Assembly (NCBI RefSeq): GCF_003143755.1
Contig: NZ_QFRI01000001.1
Span: 1,758,051 to 1,822,050, forward strand
Direction: 5' to 3'
From: Algibacter marinivivus
Lineage (GTDB): Bacteria > Bacteroidota > Bacteroidia > Flavobacteriales > Flavobacteriaceae
Length of the DNA: 64,000 nucleotides
Shown one piece after another: positions 8,366 to 58,642 of the stretch (the first letter of the stretch is position 1; every line of letters starts with the position of its first letter). The notes beneath the pieces were generated by a model. It ran no database searches. It was not told the origin of the DNA and saw nothing but the letters and a program-made list of their open reading frames with translations. The translations under genes were made by a program, and so were the position numbers.

Positions 8366-8410
8366 CAAGACAGTACAGGATACTTTTCGTTTGCAATACA
8401 CCTAATTTTA
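8366..8410 (+). promoter_or_regulatory. PUL box 1 with -7 element
   Basis: CAAGA-CAGTA-CAGGATA (8366-8382) is followed by CTTTT. The -7-like element TAATTTTA starts at 8403, exactly 27 bp after the start of CAGGATA. It serves the T9SS clan GH-A gene at 8422. Confidence 0.7.
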
Positions 8411-8421
8411 AACAAAAAAAC

Positions 8422-10185
8422 ATGCTGAAAAAACTACCTTATTTATATATAGCACTGCTAATTTCAGTATCCGTATTTGCTCAAGACTATCCTTTTAGTT
8501 TACCTGAAAATATGGAGGCAACTATTAACATAACATCTTCCTCAAGCGAAGAATTCAATAATTTATTACTCGGAACAAATACACATCATTTTACAACTTC
8601 AACAGAGAAGGCTCTAATAAACAAATTAAAGCCCATAACTATTAGGTTTCCTCATGGTTTATGGGCTAATTGGTACGATTGGCGACGTGATGTTACGCGC
8701 CTTTTTGGAACGGAAAGTTTCCAATATGAACAAGGCGTAAATAAAACTATCAGAACAAAAACAGTAGACCATTTAGCTAGTATAAACATATTTGACAATC
8801 TTAATATCAAAGTAGGAATAGAAGGCCTTACAAGTTTAAATGAAACCAGAAAATCCGAAACAGGAAAAGGGTTTGATATGATGTGGACGTTTAACATGAG
8901 TGCAGATGGTACCGATTTTAATAATGGATGCCCAGAAACCATAGCCCGATACGATGATTTAATTGCAAAAGGTTTTGAAGTAAAAGTTGTTGAAATGGGT
9001 AACGAGAATTTTTATCCAGGACAACGAAGCTCCATCATCCCAAATACTGAAGATTATATTGCCAGAGCAAAAGCCATGTCTGCTGCACTTAAAGCAAAAG
9101 ATCCAAATATAAAAGTATCCGTACCATTATTGCGAAGAGATAATTGGGCAAATCCTAATTGGAATCAAGATTTAACCCAAGATCTTACTTATTTTGATGC
9201 TGTTACTGTACACACCTATGTAGGTTCAGACCCAGATGATGCTAGCAATAGCGACGAAGCTTATGGTACAGCACTTACAGCACGTAAACACTTAGGGAAT
9301 TCTATTTATGATTATGCGCATCAAGTAGCACCCAATAAACCAATTTGGTTAACCGAGTGGGGTGTGAAATCTGGTGGCCCAAATGCGGTATCTGTTTTAG
9401 GAATGGCAGATTGTTATATTTTTATGAGTGAAAATCAAGATATTTTTGAACGTGCCAATTGGTTTAGTGTAAATGGAAAATTAAACTCACATTACGTATG
9501 GGAAACTTATATTTCACCAAGTGGAGTAGAGCGCCCAAGAATTAAGTACCCTTTAGAAAAAACACTGTTTGGGTCGGCATACGAAATTATACGTTTAGCA
9601 ATTGAAAATACTACATTAATTGAGAGTGATGTACAAGTTCCAAACCTTGTAGATGGTGTAAAAGCGGTTAACGCCAGAGCTGTAACTAAAGATGGAAAAA
9701 CCTCTGTTTTTGTTGTAAACCTTAGTAATCAGGATGTGCCATTTAATGTGAATATTGATGGTGATTTTTATACAGATAATGCTGTTCACAAGGCCATATC
9801 ATTTTCAACAATGGATGAGGAAAGAGCTATGGGGATTGATGTAGATCCGTTAACTCTAATTAGCGATGGCAGTGAAAGTATTACTTTACCTAAATTTTCA
9901 ATAAATATTATAGAATTATCTAATGCTTCATTATCCGCTTCAAAAATCGTTAAACAAAATGAGGTGAGTATATATCCAAATCCTAGTAATGGGACATTCA
10001 ATATAAAACTAAACCATGGAGAAGATACGCAGTATCGAATTTATTCGATTAATGGTGTAGAAATTCAAAAAGGTAATTTTGTATCAACAAAAGAGATTCG
10101 TTTTGAAAATCATCAAACAGGTATTTATATATTACAACTTGAGGGAAGTCAAGGTATTTCAACCCAGAAAATTGTGGTTAAATAA
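8422..10185 (+). CDS. Secreted clan GH-A glycoside hydrolase with T9SS sorting domain
   Basis: A signal peptide ends at S-V-F-A-Q. The catalytic domain is a (beta/alpha)8 barrel of clan GH-A: V-E-M-G-N-E-N places the acid/base at Glu195, and W-L-T-E-W-G places the nucleophile at Glu312. The N-terminal strand I-R-F-P-H-G-L-W-A-N-W resembles enzymes of the GH39/GH51/GH79/GH86 type, but I cannot assign a family. A beta-sandwich (about 395-500) follows, then a T9SS type A sorting domain beginning at I-Y-P-N-P-S-N-G-T-F and ending in K-I-V-V-K. It should therefore be exported and attached or released at the cell surface, fitting an enzyme that cuts the long polymer. It is a single-gene unit, with a box upstream and a terminator downstream. 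Confidence 0.8.
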   Translation: MLKKLPYLYIALLISVSVFAQDYPFSLPENMEATINITSSSSEEFNNLLLGTNTHHFTTSTEKALINKLKPITIRFPHGLWANWYDWRRDVTRLFGTESFQYEQGVNKTIRTKTVDHLASINIFDNLNIKVGIEGLTSLNETRKSETGKGFDMMWTFNMSADGTDFNNGCPETIARYDDLIAKGFEVKVVEMGNENFYPGQRSSIIPNTEDYIARAKAMSAALKAKDPNIKVSVPLLRRDNWANPNWNQDLTQDLTYFDAVTVHTYVGSDPDDASNSDEAYGTALTARKHLGNSIYDYAHQVAPNKPIWLTEWGVKSGGPNAVSVLGMADCYIFMSENQDIFERANWFSVNGKLNSHYVWETYISPSGVERPRIKYPLEKTLFGSAYEIIRLAIENTTLIESDVQVPNLVDGVKAVNARAVTKDGKTSVFVVNLSNQDVPFNVNIDGDFYTDNAVHKAISFSTMDEERAMGIDVDPLTLISDGSESITLPKFSINIIELSNASLSASKIVKQNEVSIYPNPSNGTFNIKLNHGEDTQYRIYSINGVEIQKGNFVSTKEIRFENHQTGIYILQLEGSQGISTQKIVVK

Positions 10186-10216
10186 ACTTTAAAATACTAA
10201 CCATAAGCATAATATA

Positions 10217-10253
10217 AAACGCTACCAAATCAATTTTATGGTAGCGTTTTTCG
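10217..10253 (+). terminator. Rho-independent terminator
   Basis: An inverted repeat with AACGCTACCA and TGGTAGCGTT arms is followed by a T-rich tract. It sits 32 bases after the stop codon of the gene ending at 10185. Confidence 0.85.
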
Positions 10254-10284
10254 TTTTGTTTAAATAATAAATATAAATCTTAAG

Positions 10285-10328
10285 CATGAGAGTACAGGAT
10301 AATAATAGTAGAAACGGTTTTATTTTAA
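10285..10328 (+). promoter_or_regulatory. PUL box 2 with -7 element
   Basis: CATGA-GAGTA-CAGGATA (10285-10301) precedes a -7-like TATTTTAA at 10321, 26 bp after the start of CAGGATA. It precedes the GH106 gene at 10363. Confidence 0.65.
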
Positions 10329-10362
10329 GAGTTATATATTTAATTCAAAAATTATTAATTCA

Positions 10363-13200
10363 ATGTATATAAGTAAGTTTTTTCCAGTTTTAGCTTTAGT
10401 TTTTCTTATGTCCTCATGTAATGAAAGTAAGTTGGAAAAAACTAACGCTCAAGATTTATTTAGCAAATTTCAGAAACCTCCAGCAGAAGCGCGCCCTTTT
10501 GTACGTTGGTGGTGGAATGGTAATAAAATTAAAACTTTAGAACTTGACAGACAATTAGAATCTCTAAAGAATGTTGGGTTTGGAGGTGTGGAAATAAACC
10601 CAATTGCTATGCCAGCTGCTTTTAACAAAAACGAAAAATCTTTAGTTTGGATGAGCGATGAATGGGTTGATATGGTAGTTCATGCGGCTAAAAAAACCAA
10701 AGATTTAGGCATGATTACAGACATAATTGCTGGCACAGGATGGCCGTTTGGTGGAGAATTTTTAAAGGACGAAGAGACGAGTCAACGGATGGTCACAGAC
10801 TTTATTGAATATAATTCTAATGAGGTTATTAAAGTTGATGAAGAGTATTTAATTAATTTGTACAAAAAAAAGTTTGGAAAAGCCAGAGCTCAAAGGCATA
10901 TAAGTAAAAGAACAACTTATGGGCTAGCTAATCTAGCTTTAATTCCCAAAGATTGTAATGATAAGAGTCAGATAATAAATCTTATAGGGCACTTAGATAA
11001 AAAAGGAAAACTAAACTATAAAATTGAAAGCTCAGAGAAATATTATTTAAGCTATTCGCTTATTCAACAAAATTTCAGAGATGTAACTCTTGGGGCTCCT
11101 GGAGGAGCAGGTCCGGTTATGGATCATTATAAAAAGGAAATGACCTTGGCATATTTGAATAGGTTAAAGAAAATATCAGAACGTTCAGGTATTCCACTAA
11201 ATCAATTAATTAGAGCCATTTTTTGTGATAGTATTGAGGTTTCTGGAGCTAATTGGACTGATGGTTTCGAAAATATTTTTTTTCGTACTTATGGTTACAA
11301 ACTAGATAAGTGGATGCCTTTTGTGTTTTATTCTGCCCGTGGGAATTATTCAAATGATAAATATTCCAACAACTTCTCGCTAGAATTTAAAGACAATTTA
11401 AAACGTGTTCGATACGATTACAATAAACTATTGGTAGAAGTATTTTTAAAAAACTTTACCCAAACTTATAAAGATTTTTGTGAAGCAAATGATGTGCTTT
11501 GCAGATATCAAGCCTATGGAACACCTTTTTTAATGGGGATGTTAGATGGGTATATGATACCAGATATTCCTGAAAGCAATAATTGGATTTATTCTGCAGA
11601 AATGAAAGATTCTTTATGGAAGTGGAACCAAAGTCATGGGTACATGACTTGGAATATGTACGCTTCTGCTGGAGGGCATTTAACAGGAAAAAAGATTGTA
11701 AGTTCTGAAGTTATGACTAATACTCAAGGACTATTTAAAACAACTTTAGAAGAAATAAAACAACATGATGATATGAATTTCATTACAGGTATTAATCATT
11801 CTATTCTACATGGTTACAATTACTCTCCACAAGAAGAGCCATTTCCGGGATGGATACGTTATGGTGCTTATTTTAGCGAACAAAATACTTGGTGGAAACA
11901 TCTTAATAATTGGGTAGATTATAATGCACGATTATCAGCGGTGTTTCAAAATTCTCAAGCCAATAAATCTATTGCTATTATTGGACCTACTGCCGATTTA
12001 TGGGGAGATAAAGGTTTAGCAAGAGAACCTTTTCATTTAGAACCAAGTTATTTATATAAGCTTTGGGAGCCTATAAGCCAGTTAGGATATTCTTGCGAGT
12101 ATATAAATCAAAATGTTTTGAGAAATGCAAACATAGAGGGCGGTGTTATTTCATATGGAAAAATGAGTTACAAGCTATTAATTTTAGCAAGTTTAAAATC
12201 CATCCATCCAGAAACGGCATTAACTATAAAAAAGTTTGTAGAATCTGGTGGTAAGGTTGTTGTAGTTGATGAGCTACCAACTAAGTCATTGCACTATGCG
12301 GATTTTTATAAAAATGATGAAGAGGTAAAAGCAATTATGGAAGGTCTTTTAGCAAGCCATACTAATTCATTCATCAGAATTAAACAACCAAAATTGATAG
12401 AAAAATTATTGAGTTGGACTAATGAATTTTTAAATAGATCTAAGATTGCACCAGATGTTCTAATAAGTAATCCAACTAAAAAAGTCTATCAAATACATCA
12501 ATATACAGAAGATAAAGATATTTATTTTTTCACAAATATTCATCGGTATAATGTTACGTCTTTTAATGCAAAATTCCCTGTAAAAGATAAATATCCATAC
12601 ATGTGGAACCCAGAAACAGGAGAAAGAATACCTTTTTACTACGCTAAAAACACAAATGAATTACAGATTTCTTTGAATCCTTTAGAATCTTTATTGTTAG
12701 TTTTTGAAGAAGAAAAACCAGATAATAAAGTAATAAAAGAGAGTGTCAAAATAAAAAATAGCAAAGAAATTAATGAAAATTGGATTGTAACGGGGTATCG
12801 AGTAGATAATAAGATATACAATTGGAATATGTCTGATTTAGTTGATTTCAGTGAATCGATTGATACAACAAAAAATTCATTTGCTGGAGAAATTATTTAT
12901 GAGACAACGATAAACAACACAGACGATTTTACACACATAGATCTAGGTGATGTAAATGAAGGAGTAACTGAACTATATGTTAATGGTAAAAAAGTAGGCA
13001 AACGTTGGTACGGAAAAGCAGTTTATTCTATAGAAAAATTTTTAAAGCAAGGTGATAATACTATAGAAGTACATTACACAACTGTTTTGGCTAACTATTG
13101 CAAATCACTTGATAATCCATTAACAAACGTTTGGACAAGACGGTATAAAAATTTGGTTCCAACAGGACTAGAAGGTCCTGTGAAATTGTTAAGTTATTAA
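10363..13200 (+). CDS. GH106 alpha-L-rhamnosidase-like lipoprotein
   Basis: The signal peptide ends in a lipobox with Cys19 (F-L-M-S-S-C). P-F-V-R-W-W-W-N-G (about 45-53), V-G-F-G-G-V-E-I-N-P and G-T-G-W-P-F-G-G (124-131) are the characteristic N-terminal barrel motifs of GH106. At the C-terminus a galactose-binding-like beta-sandwich has T-E-L-Y-V-N-G-K-K-V-G and ends in G-P-V-K-L, as usual in the family. Its 945 residues are within the family range. GH106 enzymes remove alpha-L-rhamnose from non-reducing ends, which fits the other rhamnosidases and the mutarotase in this window. It appears monocistronic, with a box on either side. The precise linkage cannot be read from sequence. Confidence 0.87.
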   Translation: MYISKFFPVLALVFLMSSCNESKLEKTNAQDLFSKFQKPPAEARPFVRWWWNGNKIKTLELDRQLESLKNVGFGGVEINPIAMPAAFNKNEKSLVWMSDEWVDMVVHAAKKTKDLGMITDIIAGTGWPFGGEFLKDEETSQRMVTDFIEYNSNEVIKVDEEYLINLYKKKFGKARAQRHISKRTTYGLANLALIPKDCNDKSQIINLIGHLDKKGKLNYKIESSEKYYLSYSLIQQNFRDVTLGAPGGAGPVMDHYKKEMTLAYLNRLKKISERSGIPLNQLIRAIFCDSIEVSGANWTDGFENIFFRTYGYKLDKWMPFVFYSARGNYSNDKYSNNFSLEFKDNLKRVRYDYNKLLVEVFLKNFTQTYKDFCEANDVLCRYQAYGTPFLMGMLDGYMIPDIPESNNWIYSAEMKDSLWKWNQSHGYMTWNMYASAGGHLTGKKIVSSEVMTNTQGLFKTTLEEIKQHDDMNFITGINHSILHGYNYSPQEEPFPGWIRYGAYFSEQNTWWKHLNNWVDYNARLSAVFQNSQANKSIAIIGPTADLWGDKGLAREPFHLEPSYLYKLWEPISQLGYSCEYINQNVLRNANIEGGVISYGKMSYKLLILASLKSIHPETALTIKKFVESGGKVVVVDELPTKSLHYADFYKNDEEVKAIMEGLLASHTNSFIRIKQPKLIEKLLSWTNEFLNRSKIAPDVLISNPTKKVYQIHQYTEDKDIYFFTNIHRYNVTSFNAKFPVKDKYPYMWNPETGERIPFYYAKNTNELQISLNPLESLLLVFEEEKPDNKVIKESVKIKNSKEINENWIVTGYRVDNKIYNWNMSDLVDFSESIDTTKNSFAGEIIYETTINNTDDFTHIDLGDVNEGVTELYVNGKKVGKRWYGKAVYSIEKFLKQGDNTIEVHYTTVLANYCKSLDNPLTNVWTRRYKNLVPTGLEGPVKLLSY

Positions 13201-13220
13201 TTATTAAAATGAATTTATTG

Positions 13221-13265
13221 CATGACGGAGCAGGATAATTTTTTTAATGCGTTGTAATATCTTTC
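13221..13265 (+). promoter_or_regulatory. PUL box 3 with -7 element
   Basis: CATGA-CGGAG-CAGGATA (13221-13237) is followed by a run of T. The -7-like TATCTTTC starts at 13258, 27 bp after the start of CAGGATA. It drives the GH78-GH43-esterase-sulfatase-DUF1080 operon. Confidence 0.7.
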
Positions 13266-13300
13266 AATTTTAATATAAGTATCAAATTAATAGTGTCATA

Positions 13301-16159
13301 ATGATAAAAAAACAAGCTCTATTTTCAATAGTTTTCTTAACTATTTTTTGCATATCCTGTAAGCAGGTTTCTACCTCAAGAACACCAATGTCTTTTGAGA
13401 AATTATCGATAAATCTTAAGTATAATCCTTCAGCAATAGAAAGCAAACAACCTTTGTTTTCCTGGATTATAGATGTAGAAGGGTATAATAAATCACAATC
13501 GGCTTATCATATTTTGGTAGCTTCATCCCAAGAAAAATTAAATGAAGATGATGCAGATCTATGGAATTCAGATAAAGTAAAAAGCGAGAAATCTACATTT
13601 GTAAAATACACAGGAAAATCTTTAAAAGCGCTCCAGAAATACTTTTGGAAAGTTAAAATCTGGGATGAACAAGGAACGGTTTCAAAATGGTCTGAGGTTC
13701 AAGAATTTGAAATGGGTTTGATGCATTCTGACAATTGGGGTGCTTCAAAATGGATTACGCTAAATAAAGATACTCGAACTTCAGAGCATCGTTTTAGAGG
13801 TTATAAAAGAGGTAACATGAAGAAATCGAAACCAGTTGAGGGTTTTTCAGCTAGTTATTTTAGAAATGAGATAGACCTTAGTAAAGATATCGAAAATGCG
13901 CAAGCATATATTTGCGGTTTAGGCTATTATGAGTTGTATTTAAATGGAACTAAAGTTGGAGACCATGTTTTAGATCCTGCACCATCAAATTACGATAAGC
14001 AAGCCTACTATGTGAATTATGATATTACAGAACAGTTGAAATCTGGTAAAAATGCCTTTGGAATTATATTAGGAAATGGCTTTTACGGACAAAATATTTC
14101 TTGGAGCAGAGATCCAGAATCAAATAAAAAAGGGGTGTCTTACGGTCCGCCAACAGTACGTTGTTTGGTGAAATTAAATTATAAAGATGGGACATCAGCA
14201 GATTTTTATACTGACGAAAACTGGAAAGAAGCTACAGGACCAATAGTATTTAATAATATTTATGGAGGAGACACCTATGATGCACGTTATGAATTAGGAA
14301 ATTGGAATACAGTTGGTTACAATGATACTAAATGGGGAAATGCAAAAGTAGTATCTCCGCAAGTAAAAAAAATAAGTGCAAGTCAAATTCCACCAATTAA
14401 AAAGCTAAAAGAATTTGAACCACAAAAGGTTTTTAAAGCACCAGATGGTAATTGGATTGTTGATTTTGGACAAAACATTGCTGGTTGGGTAAAATTAAAC
14501 GTTCAAGGAAATGAAGGGCAATTAATTGAAATTACAACTACCGAAGCATTATTAACTAACGGAAAAGATATTTTTCCGGGTTCAACAGGAGGTGGTGCAA
14601 ATGGAATGGCACAAATTTACAAGTACATCTGTAAAGGTGATGGTTTAGAATCTTGGGAACCTAAATTTAGTTATCACGGGTTTAGATATGCAAAAATAAA
14701 TGGTACTTCTAAAAAGCCAGATGCTGATATGATTAAAGCAGTTTTGGTAGCTACAGATATTCAAGAAACTGGAAGCTTTGCATCTTCAGATGAATTGCTA
14801 AACAAAATGCACAGCATTAGTAAATGGACGATTGTAGACAATATTCACGGTATTCCAGAAGATTGTCCACACCGCGAAAAATGTGGCTGGTTAGGCGATG
14901 CACATGCATTTTGTGAATATGCACTTTACAATTATGATATGTACGATTTCTATAAAAAATATATGGAAGACATCCGTACACAAATGCGACCAACAAAAGG
15001 GCATAACACCCCAGATATAAAATTTCAAGTGCCAACTATGATTGCTCCAGGAAAACGTACATCAACCTACGCAAAGATAGATTGGGGCGTAGCCACTATG
15101 TATTTGCCATGGTATAATTACAAGTTTTATGGTGATGATGCCATAGTAAAAGAATACTACCCAGAGATGAGAAACTTGACTAATTTTTATCTAAATTACA
15201 AAGGTGAAAATGGCATTATGCAAGATGGTATGGGCGATTGGTGCCCACCACGATGGGATAGACGTAAAAACCCTTCAGCTATGGAGTGCGACCCTATTAT
15301 TTCTGCAAATGCCTATTTCTATGATGTTTTAGGTATTATGGAAACCTTTGCAGAAATGAATAATGATGTAGCTTTCGCTCTAAAAATGAAACAAGAACAA
15401 CGTGAATTAAAAGACGCGTTCAACAAAGAATTTTTAGTTGAAATACCCAATACAAAACACAAATGGTATCAAAGTCAAACAGCAACTGTTCAAGCTTTAC
15501 AGTTTGGCTTAGCACCAGAAAACGATATTGAAAGTATTGTTAACGGTTTAGCATACGATATTGTTGAAGTTAAAGGAGGGCACCATTCCACGGGAATTCA
15601 TGGAAACAGATATATCTATACTGTTTTAACCGAAAATGGAAATGCAGATTTAGCACATCAAATTTTAACAACACCAGATTTTCCAAGTCAAACGTATGTC
15701 ATGAATTCAGGCTTTACCACATGGCCAGAACGCCAATTTGTTTGGGAAGAAATGGAAGGGCCAACAAATTCTTTAAATCACCCAATGCACTCTGGTTTTG
15801 CAGCTTATTTTTATGAAGCATTAGGTGGTATTAAATCTTCAGAAAATCAACCAGGTTATAAAGTATTTACTGTAAATCCTGAGTTTCCTACTATAATTAC
15901 AAACACGGAAGTAAAAGTGCCAACACCTTATGGCGATATTACCAATGATTGGACGATAAAAAATGATGTGTTAAGTATGAATCTTGAAGTACCGTTTAAT
16001 ACAAAAGCTAGGGTTTTAGTGACGCCTTCAGAGCTTGAAAGTTTAAAAATAAACGGTGCACCTATTACAGAATTTAAACAAAATAACCCTATTGAAATAG
16101 CAGACGGATTTGTAATTTTAGGCTCAGGAGATTACACAATAGCATATCCAAAAAACTAA
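13301..16159 (+). CDS. GH78 alpha-L-rhamnosidase, lipoprotein
   Basis: A lipoprotein signal ends at Cys20. The domain order is that of large GH78 enzymes: an N-terminal fibronectin-like domain (P-L-F-S-W, then Y-F-W-K-V-K-I-W-D), a sugar-binding jelly-roll (Y-E-L-Y-L-N-G-T-K-V-G-D), a second beta-domain (V-D-F-G-Q-N-I-A-G-W), the (alpha/alpha)6 barrel and a C-terminal beta-sandwich. The catalytic-region motif reads D-C-P-H-R-E-K-C-G-W-L-G-D (521-533). The two GH78 genes at 40577 and 43397 instead have [14 protein letters not shown], so this one belongs to a different subgroup. It heads an operon with GH43, an esterase, a sulfatase and DUF1080. The target is probably terminal alpha-L-rhamnose on imported oligosaccharides. 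Confidence 0.9.
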   Translation: MIKKQALFSIVFLTIFCISCKQVSTSRTPMSFEKLSINLKYNPSAIESKQPLFSWIIDVEGYNKSQSAYHILVASSQEKLNEDDADLWNSDKVKSEKSTFVKYTGKSLKALQKYFWKVKIWDEQGTVSKWSEVQEFEMGLMHSDNWGASKWITLNKDTRTSEHRFRGYKRGNMKKSKPVEGFSASYFRNEIDLSKDIENAQAYICGLGYYELYLNGTKVGDHVLDPAPSNYDKQAYYVNYDITEQLKSGKNAFGIILGNGFYGQNISWSRDPESNKKGVSYGPPTVRCLVKLNYKDGTSADFYTDENWKEATGPIVFNNIYGGDTYDARYELGNWNTVGYNDTKWGNAKVVSPQVKKISASQIPPIKKLKEFEPQKVFKAPDGNWIVDFGQNIAGWVKLNVQGNEGQLIEITTTEALLTNGKDIFPGSTGGGANGMAQIYKYICKGDGLESWEPKFSYHGFRYAKINGTSKKPDADMIKAVLVATDIQETGSFASSDELLNKMHSISKWTIVDNIHGIPEDCPHREKCGWLGDAHAFCEYALYNYDMYDFYKKYMEDIRTQMRPTKGHNTPDIKFQVPTMIAPGKRTSTYAKIDWGVATMYLPWYNYKFYGDDAIVKEYYPEMRNLTNFYLNYKGENGIMQDGMGDWCPPRWDRRKNPSAMECDPIISANAYFYDVLGIMETFAEMNNDVAFALKMKQEQRELKDAFNKEFLVEIPNTKHKWYQSQTATVQALQFGLAPENDIESIVNGLAYDIVEVKGGHHSTGIHGNRYIYTVLTENGNADLAHQILTTPDFPSQTYVMNSGFTTWPERQFVWEEMEGPTNSLNHPMHSGFAAYFYEALGGIKSSENQPGYKVFTVNPEFPTIITNTEVKVPTPYGDITNDWTIKNDVLSMNLEVPFNTKARVLVTPSELESLKINGAPITEFKQNNPIEIADGFVILGSGDYTIAYPKN

Positions 16160-16194
16160 GTTTACAAGACACTAAAATATCTAAAAGGCATACT

Positions 16195-17985: not shown

Positions 17986-18068
17986 AATCATTTAAATTTT
18001 TAAAATCCACGAAAAATAAATAGAAGTTAAATCAATAAAAGGTATAGTAAATAGAGAAAATTAATAAT

Positions 18069-20463: not shown

Positions 20464-20471
20464 GATATAAT

Positions 20472-21245: not shown

Positions 21246-21290
21246 CATGACAGTACAGGTTTGTTTTCTCTATAAAAGATATTATTTTTG
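21246..21290 (+). promoter_or_regulatory. PUL box 4 with -7 element
   Basis: CATGA-CAGTA-CAGGTTT (21246-21262) is followed by a perfect TAnnTTTG element (TATTTTTG, 21283-21290), 27 bp after the start of CAGGTTT. It serves the GH39-like gene at 21316. Confidence 0.72.
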
Positions 21291-21315: not shown

Positions 21316-23013
21316 ATGAAAAGATTAAAAGCCCTAAGATTGTTTGTTTTGATGATACCGATTATATCATTTACACTTTTTTTTACATGTTCAAAAGATG
21401 AACAAATGGAGAAGGAGATTATAGAAAATCCAGAACCAGAAGAACCTGAGGAACCACAAGAACCACAAGAACCACAAGCCATAAATGAAGCAGATATTGA
21501 CCCTAGTAAAATAGCTACAATAAACACTGGTGCTGTAGTAGGGCAATTCCATAATTTTTGGTCTACACGACCGATGGTAAATCAATCGCGATTTAATACT
21601 ACAAATTTTAGAAACTCCTTACAGACAATAAAGGATTATGTAAAAAGTTACAATTTGGTTAGATCTATGGGAGGAAGAACAGATAACCTTAATATGTTTT
21701 ACAAAGGTGTTGATGGTTCAGGTAATATAATTACTGATTTTAGTGATTTGGTTTCTACTATGAGAAACTTTATGAGTACTGGATTCAAACCAAGAATTGT
21801 TTTAAGTAAAGTGCCTTGGGAAATGGTTGCTAATAAAGTGGTAAATACCTATGGAAATACAAGTCCTCCTGATAATTACGATTATTGGAGGCAATATGTA
21901 AATGCTTTTTTAACCACACTTGTTAATGAATTTGGTATGCAAGAGGTTAAAACTTGGCGATTTAGGGTGAGTACTGAACCTAATTATACGCCTAATCATT
22001 GGAACGGTACTATGCAAGAGTATTTTAAACATTACGATATAACTGTTGATGAAGTTTTAAAAGTGATTCCTGACGCTATTGTTGGTCCAGGAAATATGTT
22101 AACTGAAGATAGTGTTGCAACTTATACAACAGAATTAATTGATCATTGTGCCAATGGTACTAATTATGCAACGGGTGCAACAGGTACTAAAATGGATTTT
22201 TTTAGTATTTCATATTATGAAAAAATAGATCAAAACACTGTAGCTTTACCTGATAAGATTGAGCGCTACAGAAATAAATTGAATAGTTATCCTCAGTTTA
22301 GTAATATTCCATTAGATATACAAGAGTTTGGGATACTTCGAGATGAAAATCGCGTACGTGGCTCAAGTTTAGTTGATGCAACTGAACTGGGTGCAAGTTG
22401 GTATGCAACAGTCTGTGATATGGTACACGAATATAAAATAAATGAGATTTATGATTGGGGGCAAGAAATAGAAGGCAGTGATTTACCTCAAGGTAGAAAA
22501 AACGTAACGCGTATGTTTCAAAAGATGGAAGGTGGTAGTAAACTAGAAGCAATAGATAATTTTAGTGGTTACGCTGGAGTTATTCCAGTTGTTAAGGGCG
22601 ATGTGATATATCTATTAGTATATAACCATAATCCGTCAAGAACAAGTAATTCAAGTCGTACCATTTATCCTAAGTTAGAGGGTGGTCTTATTTCGAGTGG
22701 AAATAAATGGAAAATGAGCGAATGGACTGTAGATAAAAACAATGGTGTTATGATGCACGAGTTCTATAAAGATTTAAGAGCCGCGGGTGTATCTGAAAAC
22801 ACAAACGGACGTATATATGGTAACAGGACATCAGATAGGTTTGCTGATGGATGGCAAAACGTATTAAGTGCTAATTTGTCAAAATATCAAGGTTTAGCAA
22901 ACCTTCCAAAAACGGTATCAGATTCTTTGGTAATAAAAGGGAATGAAAGTCTTATCCTAAAAGTGGATTTAGAGCCACATGCTGTTAAACTTTATGAACT
23001 TGTGCCACAATAA
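21316..23013 (+). CDS. GH39-like glycoside hydrolase, surface or periplasmic lipoprotein
   Basis: A lipoprotein signal ends at Cys25, followed by a proline/glutamate-rich spacer (about 38-54) that should hold the enzyme away from the membrane. The catalytic barrel resembles GH39 and clan GH-A: W-R-F-R-V-S-T-E-P-N gives an acid/base at Glu221 and L-D-I-Q-E-F-G gives a nucleophile at Glu337. The W-R-F-R-V segment followed by a H-W motif is shared with the larger protein at 58682, so the two are homologous over the barrel. A beta-sandwich ends the protein. GH39 members act on beta-xylosides, iduronides and similar sugars. It is a single-gene unit with its own box and terminator. Confidence 0.78.
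   Translation: MKRLKALRLFVLMIPIISFTLFFTCSKDEQMEKEIIENPEPEEPEEPQEPQEPQAINEADIDPSKIATINTGAVVGQFHNFWSTRPMVNQSRFNTTNFRNSLQTIKDYVKSYNLVRSMGGRTDNLNMFYKGVDGSGNIITDFSDLVSTMRNFMSTGFKPRIVLSKVPWEMVANKVVNTYGNTSPPDNYDYWRQYVNAFLTTLVNEFGMQEVKTWRFRVSTEPNYTPNHWNGTMQEYFKHYDITVDEVLKVIPDAIVGPGNMLTEDSVATYTTELIDHCANGTNYATGATGTKMDFFSISYYEKIDQNTVALPDKIERYRNKLNSYPQFSNIPLDIQEFGILRDENRVRGSSLVDATELGASWYATVCDMVHEYKINEIYDWGQEIEGSDLPQGRKNVTRMFQKMEGGSKLEAIDNFSGYAGVIPVVKGDVIYLLVYNHNPSRTSNSSRTIYPKLEGGLISSGNKWKMSEWTVDKNNGVMMHEFYKDLRAAGVSENTNGRIYGNRTSDRFADGWQNVLSANLSKYQGLANLPKTVSDSLVIKGNESLILKVDLEPHAVKLYELVPQ
21433..21477 (+). repeat. Five 9-bp tandem repeats encoding an E-P-(E/Q) spacer
   Basis: The last three units are identical (GAACCACAA at 21451, 21460 and 21469), preceded by two degenerate units (GAACCAGAA, GAACCTGAG). 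They encode the spacer between the lipid anchor and the catalytic domain, and could vary in copy number by slippage. Confidence 0.85.
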
Positions 23014-23123: not shown

Positions 23124-23188
23124 CAGGGAAGTACAGGATAGTAAGGGATAGGACAGGATAGTTTATAAATTTTTACATAATATTTTAG
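23124..23188 (+). promoter_or_regulatory. PUL box 5 (four-fold repeat) with -7 element, upstream of susC
   Basis: Four 7-bp units start at 10-bp steps: CAGGGAA (23124), CAGGATA (23134), AGGGATA (23144) and CAGGATA (23154). The -7-like TATTTTAG begins at 23181, 27 bp after the last unit starts. This is the longest array of the element in the window. Confidence 0.75.
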
Positions 23189-23217: not shown

Positions 23218-26200
23218 ATGAATTTAAAAACTACATTAGACATATGTTTAAGTTTTCGCAAAACTTGGATGTGTGTTGTTTTGGCATTATCATGTATGGC
23301 AATGTCAAATGCACAGACTGTAAACGGTACAGTCACTGCAGATGGGCAACCTCTTCCTGGTGCTACAGTACTAATTAAGGGGACTACAACAGGAACAAGC
23401 ACTGATTTTGATGGGAATTTCACTATCAATGCAGAAGCACTAAGCACGTTAGTTATTTCTTATGTTGGTTATTCAACAAAAGAAGTACTTGTTGGTAATC
23501 AGACTCAAATCAACGTCACTTTAGAGCAAGATAATAAACTTGACGAAGTTGTTATAATTGGTTATGGTTCTCAGAGAAAATCAGATTTAACTGGTTCGGT
23601 TTCCTCAGTTAGTGGTGAAGATCTTTCAACTTTGCCGGTTTCAAGGGTGGATCAGGCATTACAAGGTAGGGCAGCAGGTGTACAAGTAACACAAACTAGT
23701 GGGGCACCTGGAGCAGGTACATCCATTAGAGTAAGAGGAGGTAACTCTATTACTGGTAGTAATGAACCTCTTTGGGTTATTGATGGTATTATTGTTGGAA
23801 CAAATTTCAATTTAAATAACCTTAATGCCAATGATGTTAAATCTGTTGAGATATTAAAGGATGCATCTTCCATTGCAATTTATGGTTCAAGAGGAGCAAA
23901 TGGAGTTATTTTGGTAACTACTAAAAGTGGCGCTAGTATTGGTGGTGGAAAACCGCAAGTTAATGTGGGGATTTACACAAGTTCACAATTAGTGCCTGAA
24001 AGACCAGATTATCTAAGTCAAGCTCAACAAATTGAATACACCAATCAGGATGCAATTCTAAGAGGTGTAGTTGAGCCATTTCCAGGAAGTCCATCGGACT
24101 ATCCTAATAATGATTTTTTCGATCTGTTAGTAAATCCATCGCCTATTTATAACGCCGATGTTTCTATTGCAGGTACTTCAGAGAATGGTAGTGTAAATTA
24201 TTATAATTCTCTTAATTTTTTCGATCAAGATGGTATTGTTGAAAATTCAGGAATACAAAAGTATATATTTAGGTCTAACTTAGATTTTAAACTAAGTGAC
24301 AAACTGAAAGCAGGGGCACGGATTAATTATTCAAGAATAAAGCAGGATAATGGTGTAGTTGGTTATGGAAGTCTTTTAGGAATTTTACCAACCCAGCCCA
24401 TATACAATGCTGATGGTTCTTTTAATGGGGCTAATGAGGTAACTGGGAATCCATTTAATAACCCTGTAGCCACGTCAAGATTGGATATAGATGAGACTAC
24501 TTCTAGCAATTTGTTAGGAACGGTTTATTTAGAATATAGCCCTATTGAAAATTTAATTATACGTTCTACTTTTAATCCGAATATTATCAACTCTAAAAGG
24601 AACGAATTTACGTCTAGTCAAAGACCAGATTTACAATCGGGAGATAGTAATGCTAGGATAAGAACTACGTCAACTATCAATTGGAATAATGAAAATACGG
24701 TTCAATACTCTGGGGTAATAGGAGACAATCATAACTATACGATTCTAGGAGGTGCATCATTTCAGAAAGATGTTACAGAAACAGCTTCGGCTCAAGCCTT
24801 TGGTTTCACTACTGATGCGACAACATTCAATTCCTTAAGAACAGGATCAGATCCTTTAAGAAATTTGGTAGAATCTGGATATGGGCAAAGAACACTTGTT
24901 TCCTTTTTCGGAAGGCTTAATTATACTTATAAAGATAAGTACTTATTAACATTAGTGGGTAGAAGCGACGGAAGTTCTGTATTTGCTCCTGGAAATAAGT
25001 ATGAGTTTTATCCATCTATTGCAGGTGCATGGAAAATTACTGAAGAGCCTTTTATGCAAAATCAAAACACCTTTCAAGATTTAAAGTTAAGAGCAAGTTA
25101 TGGTAAGTCTGGAAACCAAGCTATCAACCCATATGAAACTTTACCTGTTTATGATGAAGGCAATACCTCTTTTAACGGTGTTGAGTTGCCTGGTGTTGTT
25201 TTAGGAAGATTTGCAAATCCGGATTTAATATGGGAAACCACAACATCTTTTGATATAGCTTTAGAAGCTTCATTGTTTGGAGGAAAAGTGTTTGCAGAAT
25301 TTAACTATTATTCTAAAAAGACTGAAAATTTACTATTAGAAGTAACTATTCCAAGACAAGCGGGAGATGATAATCAAATACAAAATGTAGGATCCTTACA
25401 GAATAGAGGATGGGAATTTTTAGTTAATTCTACTAATATTTCTAATTCTAATTTTAATTGGAATTCTACAGTAACACTTTCTTCTAACAAAAATAAAGTA
25501 TTAGATCTTGGCGGTCAAGAGTTTATAGATGTTATTACAGATCCAGTATTGGGGGCAGGAAACTTAAGACTTATTGTTGGAGAAACTGTTCCAGTATTTA
25601 CTGGGGCAGAGTATTTAGGAACTTGGAAAAGTCAAGCAGAAATTGATGCTTCAGGACAAGATCCAGCAGCAAATGCAGTTGGTGGTCCTAGATATAAAGA
25701 TACAGATGGAGATGGAACTATATCTGTCGAGGATTATGAAGTGCTAGGTAATCCATTTCCAGATTTAATTTACGGGTTTGAAAACAATTTTTCCTATAAA
25801 AATTTCGACTTAAGTATTTATATTCAAGGAACAGTTGGAAATGAGGTTTTTAATACAAGAACACGTACAAATTTTTTCATTCGTGGGGAGGTTCCAAAGT
25901 ATGCCGAAGTAGCTGATTATTGGTCACCTCAAAACCCAACTTCTGACATTCCTTCACCTGGATTTGTTGAAGGTGCTTATGTTCCTAATTCTTTCGATGT
26001 TGAAGACGGTTCGCATTTACGTCTAAAAAATGTAAGATTTACTTATCATTTACCAGTTGATAAGATGGGATTAAAAGGTGTAAAAGACATGTCAATTTAT
26101 GCATCAGGAACTAATTTGTTGTTGCTTTCCGATTTTAGATTAATCGATCCAGAGACAAGTCAGTATGGTAGATCTAATATCCGTCAAGGATTTGCTGGCG

Positions 26201-26253
26201 GAGAGTATCCTAATGCTAGAGTTTTAAGTTTAGGTCTTAACGTAACTTTTTAA
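23218..26253 (+). CDS. SusC-like TonB-dependent outer-membrane transporter
   Basis: After the signal peptide (M-A-M-S-N-A-Q) comes a carboxypeptidase-regulatory-like domain (V-N-G-T-V-T-A-D-G-Q-P-L-P-G-A-T-V), then D-E-V-V-I-I-G-Y-G, the classic SusC/RagA linker before the plug. The plug (about 120-235) carries V-R-G-G-N-S-I-T-G and G-S-R-G-A-N-G-V-I-L-V-T-T-K, and the rest forms a large beta-barrel ending in L-N-V-T-F. Its 1011 residues are normal. No N-terminal STN signalling domain is visible, so this transporter probably does not signal to an anti-sigma/ECF sigma pair. It imports oligosaccharides in partnership with the SusD encoded 10 bases downstream. Confidence 0.97.
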   Translation: MNLKTTLDICLSFRKTWMCVVLALSCMAMSNAQTVNGTVTADGQPLPGATVLIKGTTTGTSTDFDGNFTINAEALSTLVISYVGYSTKEVLVGNQTQINVTLEQDNKLDEVVIIGYGSQRKSDLTGSVSSVSGEDLSTLPVSRVDQALQGRAAGVQVTQTSGAPGAGTSIRVRGGNSITGSNEPLWVIDGIIVGTNFNLNNLNANDVKSVEILKDASSIAIYGSRGANGVILVTTKSGASIGGGKPQVNVGIYTSSQLVPERPDYLSQAQQIEYTNQDAILRGVVEPFPGSPSDYPNNDFFDLLVNPSPIYNADVSIAGTSENGSVNYYNSLNFFDQDGIVENSGIQKYIFRSNLDFKLSDKLKAGARINYSRIKQDNGVVGYGSLLGILPTQPIYNADGSFNGANEVTGNPFNNPVATSRLDIDETTSSNLLGTVYLEYSPIENLIIRSTFNPNIINSKRNEFTSSQRPDLQSGDSNARIRTTSTINWNNENTVQYSGVIGDNHNYTILGGASFQKDVTETASAQAFGFTTDATTFNSLRTGSDPLRNLVESGYGQRTLVSFFGRLNYTYKDKYLLTLVGRSDGSSVFAPGNKYEFYPSIAGAWKITEEPFMQNQNTFQDLKLRASYGKSGNQAINPYETLPVYDEGNTSFNGVELPGVVLGRFANPDLIWETTTSFDIALEASLFGGKVFAEFNYYSKKTENLLLEVTIPRQAGDDNQIQNVGSLQNRGWEFLVNSTNISNSNFNWNSTVTLSSNKNKVLDLGGQEFIDVITDPVLGAGNLRLIVGETVPVFTGAEYLGTWKSQAEIDASGQDPAANAVGGPRYKDTDGDGTISVEDYEVLGNPFPDLIYGFENNFSYKNFDLSIYIQGTVGNEVFNTRTRTNFFIRGEVPKYAEVADYWSPQNPTSDIPSPGFVEGAYVPNSFDVEDGSHLRLKNVRFTYHLPVDKMGLKGVKDMSIYASGTNLLLLSDFRLIDPETSQYGRSNIRQGFAGGEYPNARVLSLGLNVTF

Positions 26254-27953: not shown

Positions 27954-27998
27954 CAGCACAGTACAGGTTACAAATTAAGTTTATGGAATTTATCTTGC
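27954..27998 (+). promoter_or_regulatory. PUL box 6 with -7 element
   Basis: CAGCACA (27954) and CAGGTTA (27964) stand 10 bp apart. The -7-like TATCTTGC begins at 27991, 27 bp after the start of CAGGTTA. It precedes the GH5-GH3 operon. Confidence 0.68.
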
Positions 27999-28020: not shown

Positions 28021-29415
28021 ATGAAGTTTCAGTTTATTTTCGGGATACTGTTTTTATTTTCTTTTATGTCTTTCGCTCAGATAAAGCATGGTTTAAGAGA
28101 TGAACAGGGGCGTCATATTATTCCAAGAGGTTTTGTAGTTAATACAAACGATCATGCAGGAGAAGTTTTCTTTAATAGCGATGATTATGCACGAATGGTG
28201 AGAATGGGTGCCAATTCTCAAGTCATTCGTTTAGAGCTAGGTAAACTAAGTAACTTTCCAGGAGGAAAACTTGAACCTAAATATTTAGCTAAATTAGATT
28301 CTTTAGTTGCTTTAGGTAAAAACCATGGCATTAAAACCATTTTTAAAATGACAGTTTATGGTGTAGATAAGTTTGTTTGGGAAGAATTCTGGCAAAATAA
28401 AAAGAACGAATATAAAACGTACATAGATGCATGGAAAGTCATTTGGAATAGATACTCAGAGGAATCCTCGGTTTTAGGATATGATGTAGTTAACGAACCT
28501 AGAAAGTTAACGATGGATATTTCTTATGAAAACTTAACAAATAAATACCTAATTCCATTATATCAAAAAATTATAGATGAAAGTCAAAAAATAAATGATG
28601 ATAAATTAATTCTATTTCAATCTATCTTCATGAATAAAGGCGAAAAAATAGATAATAATCAGTATTCAGAAATAACAGCACCAATAAATCGTAAGAACAT
28701 CATTTTTGCACCACATATATACCAAAATAATATAGATTATATAAAGCGTAATATGGACAGGTTTGATAAGGAGTCAGATATATTAAAAGCTCCAATTTTA
28801 ATTGGTGAATGGGGTTTCCCAACTTTTGCAACTACTGATACAATAATAGAAGGCAATCTCGGACAATTAAAATATAGAGAACTTTATATTCGAACTGCAG
28901 AAGTTTTTGATAAGATGGGTGTAGGCTCAATTAAAGCATGGTTTTTAGGTAATAGGACAATGCAACATTTTTTACCTGGTGGGCCTTCTACTTGGTCTAT
29001 ATTTAGTGATAGTACAGATGCAGGTACTGTAGAAAGAAAGTATATTACTGATGTTATTTCTAGACCTTTTCCTCAAGCCATTGCAGGAGATATTCAATCC
29101 TTTTTATTTAATCATGCAACCAGAAGCTTAGATGTTAAAATAAATCCAGATAATAATAAAGGCGCATCTAAAATATTTATTGGAGCTAATAGACATTATC
29201 CTGATGGTTTTTCGGTATTACTAGGTGAAGAATCAGTCTTATATTATAATCCTGTAAAAAATGTAGGTCTTGAAATTTATAAATTAGCTAATGGAATAGA
29301 CCCAACAAATTTTATTTGGGATTCTAATAGTCAAAAATTAATAGTATTAAAATGGCCTAAAACTAAAGGGGTATTGGATATAAAAATCGTTCCTGGAATA
29401 AGGAATTTTGATTAA
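28021..29415 (+). CDS. Secreted GH5-like glycoside hydrolase
   Basis: The signal peptide ends at M-S-F-A-Q. The barrel resembles GH5 endoglycosylceramidase-like enzymes: an opening D-E-Q-G-R-H-I-I-P-R-G-F, acid/base in D-V-V-N-E-P (Glu159) and nucleophile in L-I-G-E-W-G (Glu263). A C-terminal beta-sandwich of about 90 residues ends the protein, as in that subgroup. No lipobox and no T9SS domain are visible, so it is probably periplasmic. It overlaps the longest possible reading of the GH3 gene by 8 bases, indicating one transcript. The substrate is not evident; a beta-glycoside of glucuronic acid or xylose would fit the locus but is inference. Confidence 0.82.
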   Translation: MKFQFIFGILFLFSFMSFAQIKHGLRDEQGRHIIPRGFVVNTNDHAGEVFFNSDDYARMVRMGANSQVIRLELGKLSNFPGGKLEPKYLAKLDSLVALGKNHGIKTIFKMTVYGVDKFVWEEFWQNKKNEYKTYIDAWKVIWNRYSEESSVLGYDVVNEPRKLTMDISYENLTNKYLIPLYQKIIDESQKINDDKLILFQSIFMNKGEKIDNNQYSEITAPINRKNIIFAPHIYQNNIDYIKRNMDRFDKESDILKAPILIGEWGFPTFATTDTIIEGNLGQLKYRELYIRTAEVFDKMGVGSIKAWFLGNRTMQHFLPGGPSTWSIFSDSTDAGTVERKYITDVISRPFPQAIAGDIQSFLFNHATRSLDVKINPDNNKGASKIFIGANRHYPDGFSVLLGEESVLYYNPVKNVGLEIYKLANGIDPTNFIWDSNSQKLIVLKWPKTKGVLDIKIVPGIRNFD

Positions 29416-31746: not shown

Positions 31747-31781
31747 CAGGATAGTACATGATACTATCGAATGTATTTTTT
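31747..31781 (+). promoter_or_regulatory. PUL box 7 with -7 element and a perfect dyad
   Basis: CAGGATA (31747) and CATGATA (31757) are 10 bp apart. The -7-like TATTTTTT begins at 31774, 27 bp after the first copy. Here the second copy lies downstream, unlike most sites. GATAGTA (31750-31756) and TACTATC (31762-31768) also form a perfect inverted repeat around CATGA. Confidence 0.62.
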
Positions 31782-34833: not shown

Positions 34834-34878
34834 CAGTAAAGAGCAGGATACTTTTTTTGCATAAAACAAATAAATTAG
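34834..34878 (+). promoter_or_regulatory. PUL box 8 with -7 element
   Basis: CAGTAAA (34834) and CAGGATA (34844) are 10 bp apart, followed by CTTTTTTT. The -7-like TAAATTAG begins at 34871, 27 bp after the start of CAGGATA. It precedes the first PL24-like lyase gene. Confidence 0.7.
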
Positions 34879-37842: not shown

Positions 37843-37887
37843 CAGTATAGCGCAGGATAGTTTACCAGTAAAATAAACGTACCTTTA
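37843..37887 (+). promoter_or_regulatory. PUL box 9 with -7 element
   Basis: CAGTATA (37843) and CAGGATA (37853) are 10 bp apart. The -7-like TACCTTTA begins at 37880, 27 bp after the start of CAGGATA. It precedes the second PL24-like gene. Confidence 0.7.
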
Positions 37888-40488: not shown

Positions 40489-40532
40489 CGAGACAGTACA
40501 GGATAGTTTTTTTTGAAAAAAATTGGAATTTG
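40489..40532 (+). promoter_or_regulatory. PUL box 10, -7 element weak
   Basis: CGAGA-CAGTA-CAGGATA (40489-40505) is followed by GTTTTTTTT. The best -7 candidate is GGAATTTG (40525-40532), which keeps TTTG but lacks TA, at offset 26. It heads the 18 kb run ending at 58563. Confidence 0.62.
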
Positions 40533-46168: not shown

Positions 46169-46182
46169 AACAGGTTAAACGC

Positions 46183-47634: not shown

Positions 47635-47653
47635 TTAACTGAATTGTATTAAA

Positions 47654-50698: not shown

Positions 50699-50714
50699 AA
50701 TAGATGATATATCT

Positions 50715-54254: not shown

Positions 54255-54261
54255 AATGATA

Positions 54262-55689: not shown

Positions 55690-55701
55690 AATCAACTAAA
55701 A

Positions 55702-57027: not shown

Positions 57028-57039
57028 AAAGCACGTATT

Positions 57040-58563
57040 ATGAATAAAATACACTTGATATTATTGGTGGTATTGACATTTGTTTTTTCTTGTAATAATA
57101 AAAAAAAGAATGTAGTAAAAGATGAAACGCCAAAGCCAAATGTTTTATTTATAGCTGTTGATGACTTGAACACTATGATAGGGCCTATTGACAATTTTTC
57201 AAACGTAAAAACACCAAATTTTGATAGGTTGGCAAAAATGGGAGTTACTTTTACAAATGCCCATGTACAGGCGCCACTTTGTGGTCCTTCAAGAGCTTCA
57301 TTAATGACAGGTTTACGTCCATCTACTACTGGAATTTACGGAATGACCCCTGATAACGAAATTAGAAGAGAGGGAAATTCAGCAACTAAGGATATTACTT
57401 TTTTACCAGAATATTTTCAGCAAAATGGGTATCATACCATGGGAATTGGCAAGCTATTTCATATTCATGCACCAGACAGTGTGTTTAATGAATCAGGAGG
57501 ACGTGTAAAAGGTTTTGGGCCATATCCCAAAAAGCGATTTGTTTGGGATGGTTTTGGAAAAGGTATTAGAGGAACACATGGAAGAACAAGCACAGATTGG
57601 GGAGCTTTTCCAGAAAGCGATACCTTAATGCCAGATCATCAATCTGTAAATTGGGTTACAGAAAGATTGCAAAGAAATTACGATAAACCGTTTTTTATGG
57701 GACTTGGTTTTTTACGTGTACACGTGCCTTTGTATGTACCACAAAAATGGTTCGATATGTATCCTTTAAATAAAATAGAAACGCCTCCATACAAATCTGA
57801 TGATTTAAACGATATTCCAAATGTTGGTTTACAAATTAATGATTTACCGATGATGCCATCAACAGAATGGGCAAAGGAAAGTGGAGAGTGGAAAAAGATT
57901 GTACAAGCTTATTTGGCATGTATCAGTTATGTAGATTACGAATTAGGTCGTGTTTTAGATGCTTTAGAAAGTAGTAAGCATGCAGACAATACTATTATTG
58001 TTTTGTGGTCCGATCATGGTTATCGTTTAGGGGAAAAAGGCACTTTTGCAAAACACGCACTTTGGGAAACAGCTACTAAAGCACCGTTAATGTTCGCTGG
58101 TCCCAATTTGCCAAAAGGAAAGAAAATTACTGCACCTGTAGAAATGCTATCTATTTATCCAACCTTATTAGAATTGAGTGGATTGCCTGCTTATAAAAGA
58201 AATGAAGGGAAAAGTTTAGTAACGATGATGCAAAAAGATGAAGGAATTCAAGATGCTTATGCCTTAACTACTTTTGCGATGAATAACCATGCTATAAAAA
58301 AAGATGGGTTCAGGTACATACGCTATGAAGATGGTACAGAAGAGTTTTATGATCATAGTAAAGACCCGAATGAATGGACTAATGAAGCTAGTAATCCTAA
58401 GTACAAAAGTAAGTTAGCAACTTTAAAAGCGCTTTTACCAAAAGAGAATTCAAAATGGGATGAAAAATCAAATTACACGTTTCAACCATATTTTGTAGAA
58501 CAAAAAAACCGGGGTAATGTTACTGGATATGAACCTGTGAAAGTGATTGAGGTAGATAGATAG
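57040..58563 (+). CDS. Family S1 sulfatase, lipoprotein
   Basis: A lipoprotein signal ends at Cys18. [11 protein letters not shown] and C-G-P-S-R-A-S-L-M-T-G-L-R-P (formylglycine Cys81) are intact. G-K-L-F-H-I-H, L-R-V-H-V-P-L-Y-V-P and W-S-D-H-G-Y-R-L-G-E-K-G fit the iduronate-2-sulfatase-like subgroup. It differs clearly from the adjacent C-S-P-S-L sulfatase, so the two are not recent duplicates. It is the last gene of the run that starts at 40577; the next gene has its own box. Substrate position unknown. Confidence 0.93.
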   Translation: MNKIHLILLVVLTFVFSCNNKKKNVVKDETPKPNVLFIAVDDLNTMIGPIDNFSNVKTPNFDRLAKMGVTFTNAHVQAPLCGPSRASLMTGLRPSTTGIYGMTPDNEIRREGNSATKDITFLPEYFQQNGYHTMGIGKLFHIHAPDSVFNESGGRVKGFGPYPKKRFVWDGFGKGIRGTHGRTSTDWGAFPESDTLMPDHQSVNWVTERLQRNYDKPFFMGLGFLRVHVPLYVPQKWFDMYPLNKIETPPYKSDDLNDIPNVGLQINDLPMMPSTEWAKESGEWKKIVQAYLACISYVDYELGRVLDALESSKHADNTIIVLWSDHGYRLGEKGTFAKHALWETATKAPLMFAGPNLPKGKKITAPVEMLSIYPTLLELSGLPAYKRNEGKSLVTMMQKDEGIQDAYALTTFAMNNHAIKKDGFRYIRYEDGTEEFYDHSKDPNEWTNEASNPKYKSKLATLKALLPKENSKWDEKSNYTFQPYFVEQKNRGNVTGYEPVKVIEVDR

Positions 58564-58597
58564 TCTATTTTTATTCTTCAAAAACCAAATTTAGTTG

Positions 58598-58642
58598 CAG
58601 GACACTTCAGGACACTTTTGATTGTAAATACAATTATATTGC
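58598..58642 (+). promoter_or_regulatory. PUL box 11 with -7 element
   Basis: A perfect 10-bp direct repeat (CAGGACACTT twice, 58598-58617) is present. The -7-like TATATTGC begins at 58635, 27 bp after the start of the second copy. The GATA of other boxes is GACA here. Confidence 0.68.

Follow-up and report, generated by a model that had tools for sequence, protein, structure and literature searches.

The AraR subfamily of GntR transcription factors, which includes Bacillus subtilis AraR, joins a GntR winged helix to a GalR/LacI-type sensor and controls genes of sugar uptake and utilisation (PMC4494728). A protein of the same build is encoded in an ulvan locus of the flavobacterium Algibacter marinivivus, of which we analyzed a stretch of 64,000 nucleotides, hereafter the window (RefSeq assembly GCF_003143755.1, contig NZ_QFRI01000001.1, G000:C1:1,758,051-1,822,050, in a genome of 3.34 Mb). 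The window carries eleven copies of a tandem box of 10-bp half-sites ahead of genes, and this box is likely the operator of that protein, a cytoplasmic sugar-responsive GntR/LacI-type regulator that would act as a rhamnose-responsive class II activator on direct repeats. AraR operators are palindromic, whereas the box is a tandem direct decamer. AraR is moreover named a repressor of arabinose metabolism in its Protein Data Bank (PDB) entries, and the present system is set apart from it by the direct 10-bp repeats, by their fixed, class II-like position and by the rhamnose and ulvan genes that follow them.

GntR domains that read direct repeats, as proposed here, are found in FarR, NagQ and NanR and in the MocR-type proteins GabR, TauR and PdxR; the units of TauR (CTGGACYTAA) and FarR (TGTATTAWTT) are, like the present ones, 10 nt each. 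NanR dimers bind (GGTATA)3 in a side-by-side assembly (PMC8012715), and TauR, GabR and PdxR are activators (PMC5320631). These proteins differ in being assigned to the FadR, HutC or MocR subfamilies, whose C-terminal domains are of other kinds, and the accessible texts describe no fixed 10-bp/27-bp layout for them. Rhamnose catabolism is likewise placed under direct-repeat operators by the DeoR- and AraC-family RhaR proteins, with a period of 10-11 bp for the DeoR type; RhaR regulons differ, however, in their protein families and, for the AraC type, in a 21-bp period (PMC3870299). Neither 'GntR' nor 'Flavobacter' appears as a term in the text of that paper. In Bacteroides thetaiotaomicron, ManR, FucR (GntR) and AraR (NrtR) are monosaccharide regulators too, a likeness by description only, and ManR and AraR are predicted to reach extracellular or SusCD genes, thus being predicted precedents; that study differs in that motifs were searched as palindromes and the FucR and RhaR regulons are single operons (PMC3878776). 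Monosaccharide-sensing control of polysaccharide catabolism has been called uncommon (PMC12125979), and the accessible parts of PMC8511951, PMC5698469 and PMC5507952 name no ulvan regulator. Among the literature matches listed, judged by title and abstract opening and with RegPrecise and supplements outside the scope, none treated this regulator or box in Flavobacteria. Chimeras of GntR and LacI type (AraR) and GntR proteins that read direct repeats, activators among them, each have precedents (PMC4494728, PMC5320631, PMC8012715); none of those matches combined the two, with a class II-like position at fixed spacing and a regulon spanning a whole polysaccharide utilization locus (PUL).

The box in the window and in the genome

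The eleven sites do share a regulatory box, built of direct half-sites spaced by one helical turn. The positions printed from the sequence placed all eleven CAGGATA-type boxes (named below by the start of this word, in window coordinates) where the initial annotation had them. As had been described, a related half-site lies precisely 10 bp upstream in 10/11 boxes, and in box 31747 the second copy (CATGATA) lies 10 bp downstream; a -7-like TA was found at +27 in 9/11 boxes and at +26 in box 10295, and box 40499 has TTTG alone. All eleven are intergenic, on the plus strand and oriented toward the following gene, with 46-78 nt to its start codon. Other copies of the box 7-mers in the window lie mostly within open reading frames (ORFs), and the intergenic ones at 8295, 37904 and 46171 lack the box context. 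A palindromic reading, TAGTA-N5-TACTA, seen by eye at 31747, was rejected because it fails at the other sites.

A position weight matrix (PWM) iterated over a 204-kb neighbourhood (C1:1,658,051-1,862,050) gave the consensus CAGGAYAGTA-CAGGATAGTT. It yielded 29 intergenic matches above 10.5 bits, which are oriented toward the gene that follows; one of them is a minus-strand match 5' of a minus-strand PL28 lyase gene. These merge to about 25 promoters over C1:1,688,399-1,827,860, of which about 14 are outside the window. The two-decamer PWM above 19 bits matched 26 times in the neighbourhood, where 60 dinucleotide shuffles averaged 0.067 matches, the matrix being trained on the same sites that it scores and some of the 26 matches being overlapping units of one array. 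Genome-wide, CAGGATA-N20-TAnnTT without mismatch had 18 matches, of which 14 fall in C1:1,688,404-1,827,860; three of the four matches beyond the locus lie within long ORFs and the fourth lies 5' of a PL28 ulvan lyase gene. With at most one mismatch, the pattern gave 148 genome matches versus 81 for its reverse. Only one of ten matches of the two-decamer pattern in this genome fell outside the locus, at C4:577,700 on the minus strand (L018); this box stands 5' of the gene of a 298-aa PL28 ulvan lyase (Pfam E 1.9e-85) and has TAAATT at +27. A 47-position profile search gave 22 matches with E <= 0.011, which are the 22 training sites, and scored the distant PL28 site at E 2.7; outside the locus no match was better than E 0.107 among the 150 of 8678 first-look candidates that were scored. 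The underlying alignment (A1) holds 22 sequences. Promoters 131757 and 110295 were omitted because their phase deviates, and sites 123134, 123144, 30349 and 87465 were dropped as further units of a listed promoter or as a second nearby site. The genome-wide test for an equal box density before unrelated genes thus left the hypothesis of a shared box standing, the sites being concentrated in the locus.

The first box of the window, CAAGACAGTA-CAGGATACTT (8366..8385), lies 5' of gene 8422-10185 (Por_Secre_tail), with the -7-like element TAATTTTA at 8403..8410, offset +27. It is followed by CATGAGAGTA-CAGGATAATA (10285..10304) before a GH106-type gene (10363-13200; -7-like TATTTTAA at 10321, offset +26), by CATGACGGAG-CAGGATAATT (13221..13240) before an alpha-L-rhamnosidase gene (13301-16159; -7-like TATCTTTC at 13258) and by CATGACAGTA-CAGGTTTGTT (21246..21265) before a GH39-type gene (21316-23013; -7 TATTTTTG at 21283). 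Four in-phase decamers, CAGGGAAGTA CAGGATAGTA AGGGATAGGA CAGGATAGTT (23124..23163), precede susC, and the -7-like TATTTTAG at 23181 is +27 from the last of them. This regulon member (23218..26253, plus strand) encodes a SusC/TonB-dependent receptor with Plug and CarbopepD_reg_2 domains; it gave no STN match in Pfam at E 0.001, in agreement with the initial annotation. Next come CAGCACAGTA-CAGGTTACAA (27954..27973) before a GH5-type gene (28021-29415; -7-like TATCTTGC at 27991) and the exceptional box CAGGATAGTA-CATGATACTA (31747..31766) before gene 31820-32686 (Por_Secre_tail), whose -7-like TATTTTTT at 31774 is at +27 when counted from the first decamer. A BNR_4 gene (34918-37110) follows CAGTAAAGAG-CAGGATACTT (34834..34853; -7-like TAAATTAG at 34871), and an ulvan-lyase-type gene (37922-40381, BNR_4 and Beta-tre_PLH30) follows CAGTATAGCG-CAGGATAGTT (37843..37862; -7-like TACCTTTA at 37880). 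The last two boxes are CGAGACAGTA-CAGGATAGTT (40489..40508), before an alpha-L-rhamnosidase gene (40577-43393) and with a -7 region that has TTTG only, and CAGGACACTT-CAGGACACTT (58598..58617), before gene 58682-61237 (GH39-type, Por_Secre_tail) with the -7-like TATATTGC at 58635.

A GntR/Peripla_BP_3 chimera as candidate regulator

The analysis covered three transcription factors encoded in the region: a GntR/Peripla_BP_3 chimera, an FCD-type GntR (C1:1,709,861, by the upstream susC) and a LacI near the end. The chimera (348 aa; C1:1,826,281-1,827,327, minus strand, 4.2 kb beyond the window) is encoded divergently from the RhaEW-like gene of the rhamnose operon, whose promoter carries the box. 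Its Pfam domains, GntR at 17-80 and Peripla_BP_3 at 215-337, are the pair that characterizes the AraR subfamily, and it has Peripla_BP_3 in place of the C-terminal aminotransferase-like domain of MocR proteins. In a Foldseek search with the AlphaFold2 model of a 91% identical orthologue from Algibacter pectinivorans (predicted local distance difference test, pLDDT, 82; predicted template modelling score, pTM, 0.65), LacI-family structures ranked first.

The distribution of the box was compared with that of the chimera across 299 genomes of the family. The box pattern was present in 80 genomes at 200 sites, and the reversed pattern gave 22 matches, about one ninth. Orthologues of the chimera were bounded by a gap, with 60 genomes at a best E <= 4.5e-121 and weaker relatives at a best E >= 5e-83. 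The box was found in 55/60 genomes with an orthologue versus 25/239 without (172 versus 28 sites), and all 27 genomes with at least three box sites carry the orthologue. As a control, the box was found in 54/69 genomes with RhaI versus 26/230 without, in 2/12 with RhaI and no regulator, and in 3/3 with the regulator and no RhaI. Closer inspection of 29 pattern loci showed that in orthologue genomes the pattern was intergenic in 20/23 and had the -7 element at +27 in 15/23, whereas in genomes without the orthologue 4/6 matches lay within ORFs and 0/6 had a -7 element, which suggests that matches in genomes lacking the regulator are mostly chance ones; G064, with a divergent regulator, is a likely true exception among them. 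In a second collection of 80 named loci (Algibacter, Polaribacter, Hyunsoonleella, Flavobacterium, Arenibacter, Maribacter, Zobellia and others), 73 contained the box, and in 63 it stood divergently no more than 700 bp from the regulator gene. In six genomes (G044, G070, G132, G153, G163, G265) the regulator gene occurs as a tandem pair, the second copy being 62-71% identical to the query.

That one of the other two factors, the FCD-type GntR or the LacI, reads the box is suggested by the presence of both genes in the same region. It is nonetheless very improbable, given the 63/80 loci in which the box adjoins the gene of the chimera and the distribution of the LacI: the box was found in 2/27 cases with the neighbouring LacI and no chimera and in 33/38 with the chimera and no LacI, which disfavours LacI as box reader. 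A DeoR-type rhamnose regulator would fit the box period, since predicted DeoR-family RhaR motifs are direct repeats of 10-11 bp (PMC3870299). We give this idea practically no credence, as the A. marinivivus genome showed no DeoRC (PF00455) match at E 0.001, whereas the same search was positive in 10/14 control genomes.

The half-site word varies with the recognition helix of the chimera. Rhamnose orthologues go with CAGGA/CAGTA, divergent rhamnose-type regulators with C[AG]GAA and galactose-type paralogues with CT[AG]GTAGG; 'galactose type' is our label for loci whose neighbouring N-terminal sequences resemble galK, galT and a symporter. In the protein, the helix SRDT[VI]EK accompanies CAGGA/CAGTA, and does so even in L108 and L109, with overall protein identities of just 41 and 44%; SRDT[VI]V[RK] accompanies CAGAA (L110, L111, L113, L114, L176, L178); and SRDTV[LI]x accompanies the galactose word. 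Residues 58-59 lie within helix 54-66 of the AlphaFold2 model. The word C[AG]GAA was obtained de novo in L110 and L114. L163 and L181 are cut by contig ends and absent from the helix comparison, and the group labelled 'class' mixes ranks, L180 being of the same family, L164 of the same order, L181 of the same phylum and the remainder of the same class. When 10-bp repeats at -37/-27 were sought before noncoding -7-like sites near regulators, with the word itself unused, lag 10 was the commonest among lags 6-16 in 4/4 groups. L112 and several other loci showed no clear repeat.

Co-occurrence, position and recognition-helix covariation thus point to the GntR/Peripla_BP_3 regulator instead of the reader proposed in the initial annotation, an AraC-type domain such as that of a hybrid two-component system (HTCS). 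Many PULs are under the control of such systems, for which direct-repeat motifs are predicted (PMC3878776). However, none of the 15 HTH_18 matches lies in the 204-kb neighbourhood; the nearest is at C1:1,529,148, and one, at C1:328,371, is in a 1308-aa frame of the HTCS kind. Furthermore, the published HTCS motifs have a period of about 21 bp (PMC3878776), against 10 bp here, and the box tracks the GntR gene and adjoins it in most loci. An AraC-type reader is accordingly given up as highly unlikely.

Spacing to the -7 element and mode of control

The initial annotation had the box at a constant spacing from a -7 element, the arrangement expected of a class II activator. This spacing was borne out in other genomes, and the element is of the sigma-A type, TAnnTTTG being the sigma-A -7 box (PMC9723704). 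As the PWM spans -10 to +8 only, the -7 offset (TAnnTTTG, at least 5/6) was scored out of sample. The element was at +27 in 45/58 sites of other genomes and in 61/93 distinct sites of the named loci, two sets that overlap in some species; in each, the next best offset had 4 sites. Most sites have two decamer units (24/25 own, 53/59 and 76/83 elsewhere) and a few have three to six. In arrays the last unit is at +27 before the window susC, in L073 (four units, SusC-type gene of G002), in L208 (four) and in L251 (six, a Maribacter metagenome-assembled genome); L059, 5' of a SusC-type gene, has six units if a weaker last one is counted, again at +27, and L058, L247 and L263 do not fit. Galactose-type loci have a direct repeat of their own, for example CTAGTAGGGT-CTAGTAGGTT, which lies precisely 27 bp before TAnnTTTG in 5/13 loci (L117, L118, L120, L122, L126) and in L180; the exceptions include L127 at 28 bp, L115 at 24 and L124 without a fit. 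The 'poor -33 element', earlier taken to favour activation, was dropped as evidence: TTG is missing from the -33 region in 25/28 own and 55/58 external sites, but also in 14/18 other noncoding TAnnTTTG sites.

The same regulator could act on the same box as a repressor, the unliganded protein covering the -33 region and rhamnose releasing it, as in AraR or NanR. Repression is conceivable for a box that overlaps the core promoter; it is the mode of NanR, a GntR protein whose sites are GGTATA repeats (PMC8012715), and the repressor name of AraR belongs to a protein of the same domain architecture. A repressor, however, needs no exact phase, and +27 dominates both site sets with no second favoured position; some galactose-type paralogues, moreover, keep this offset with a different word. 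Because of the fixed phase, activation is preferred, and repression seems unlikely, though less so than any change of reader.

Several observations weigh against activation by the chimera on direct repeats. Besides the repressor label of AraR, most GntR proteins bind palindromes (PMC5320631). In the own locus, 17/25 promoters pass TAnnTTTG at +27, with 31747, 10295 and 40499 deviating. The Fisher p of 2e-34 for the co-occurrence is not an independent-samples probability, because the genomes are related, and its tables were compiled by hand from listings. Five of the 60 orthologue genomes lack the strict pattern, among them G256, which has a variant box beside the regulator, and 7/80 named loci have no site above threshold. 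The lead of lag 10 over the next lag is modest (13 vs 9, 7 vs 4, 11 vs 6 and 9 vs 5). Two shifted positions of the galactose group, at +5 and +20, reached scores of 12 and 11, against 11. Finally, the covariation groups are small and partly follow phylogeny, the C[AG]GAA word was read by eye in L111 and L113, and L175 is mixed, with AEK beside CATGA/CATAA.

Target genes and proposed mechanism

The boxes of the window precede genes of GH106-/GH78-type rhamnosidases, GH39- and GH5-type enzymes, BNR_4 and BNR_4/Beta-tre_PLH30 proteins and susC, and two further targets are Por_Secre_tail proteins without a clear catalytic domain. The ulvan locus reaches far past the window on both sides, over C1:1,688,399-1,758,050 and 1,822,051-1,828,000 (L042-L046). 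There, a Pfam scan of 11 of the 14 boxed genes, all but those after boxes 64224, 87465 and 98595 (region coordinates), found three PL28 lyases and a BNR_4/Beta-tre_PLH30 protein, together with a sulfatase-rhamnosidase fusion, a second susC, an FGGY kinase and a Por_Secre_tail protein; the boxed gene at 76549 (region coordinates) had no Pfam match. A boxed run of closely spaced genes leads from a short-chain dehydrogenase/reductase gene to uxaC. The boxed rhamnose run begins with an Aldolase_II and short-chain-dehydrogenase protein, a fusion of the RhaEW type (PMC3870299), and continues with a RhaI-like protein, so labelled by us and without a Pfam match, and an FGGY kinase. In other genomes, the proteins downstream of the box in 10 of 16 printed stretches were four SusC-type proteins and one each of sulfatase, GH2, Beta-tre_PLH30, GH88, fasciclin and extracytoplasmic function (ECF) sigma factor. 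The box 5' of the ECF sigma factor gene (L057, G212:C14) suggests a second control tier in that species.

Two further features of the locus were observed. A sulfatase and a GH78-type rhamnosidase are combined in one protein at L044:8894-12424 (C1:1,726,944), and planctomycete-type PSCyt1/PSCyt2/PSD1 and DUF1501 proteins are encoded within this flavobacterial ulvan locus at window positions 2841-7149.

From what was computed, namely the tandem decamer, the 27-bp distance across many genera, the concentration in the locus, the co-occurrence and the covariation, we infer binding, activation and effector as follows. Rhamnose freed from ulvan would enter the cell and bind the LacI-type domain; judging by the gene neighbourhood, the effector is probably L-rhamnose or an early rhamnose metabolite. 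Each GntR domain would read one decamer, head to tail, as a dimer or as stacked dimers. The liganded protein would then occupy the -33 position and recruit RNA polymerase for transcription from the TAnnTTTG promoter, and arrays of three to six in-phase decamers may give a stronger response. A single regulator would thereby turn on uptake, lyase, sulfatase and rhamnosidase genes along with those for uronate and rhamnose, from about 25 promoters in all. More tentatively, and at somewhat less than even chances, GntR-LacI proteins of Bacteroidia at large (the class being deduced from named relatives) may be head-to-tail activators on in-phase 10-bp units, usually two and, among the sites here, up to six, of which the last precedes the -7 element by 27 bp; helix residues 58-59 would set the word, and rhamnose, galactose and further sugar regulons would share this grammar with interchangeable words.

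Sigma/anti-sigma systems are commonly credited with PUL control, and PULs are otherwise usually ascribed to oligosaccharide-sensing HTCS. If the proposal holds, flavobacterial ulvan degradation would have a likely master regulator, and, in contrast to such systems, one cytoplasmic monosaccharide-type sensor would be able to run a PUL of about 140 kb with about 25 promoters. The 10-bp/27-bp grammar, which picked out the distant ulvan lyase gene, would let regulons be read from sequence, and the set of words and helices would offer a natural data set for the GntR recognition code.

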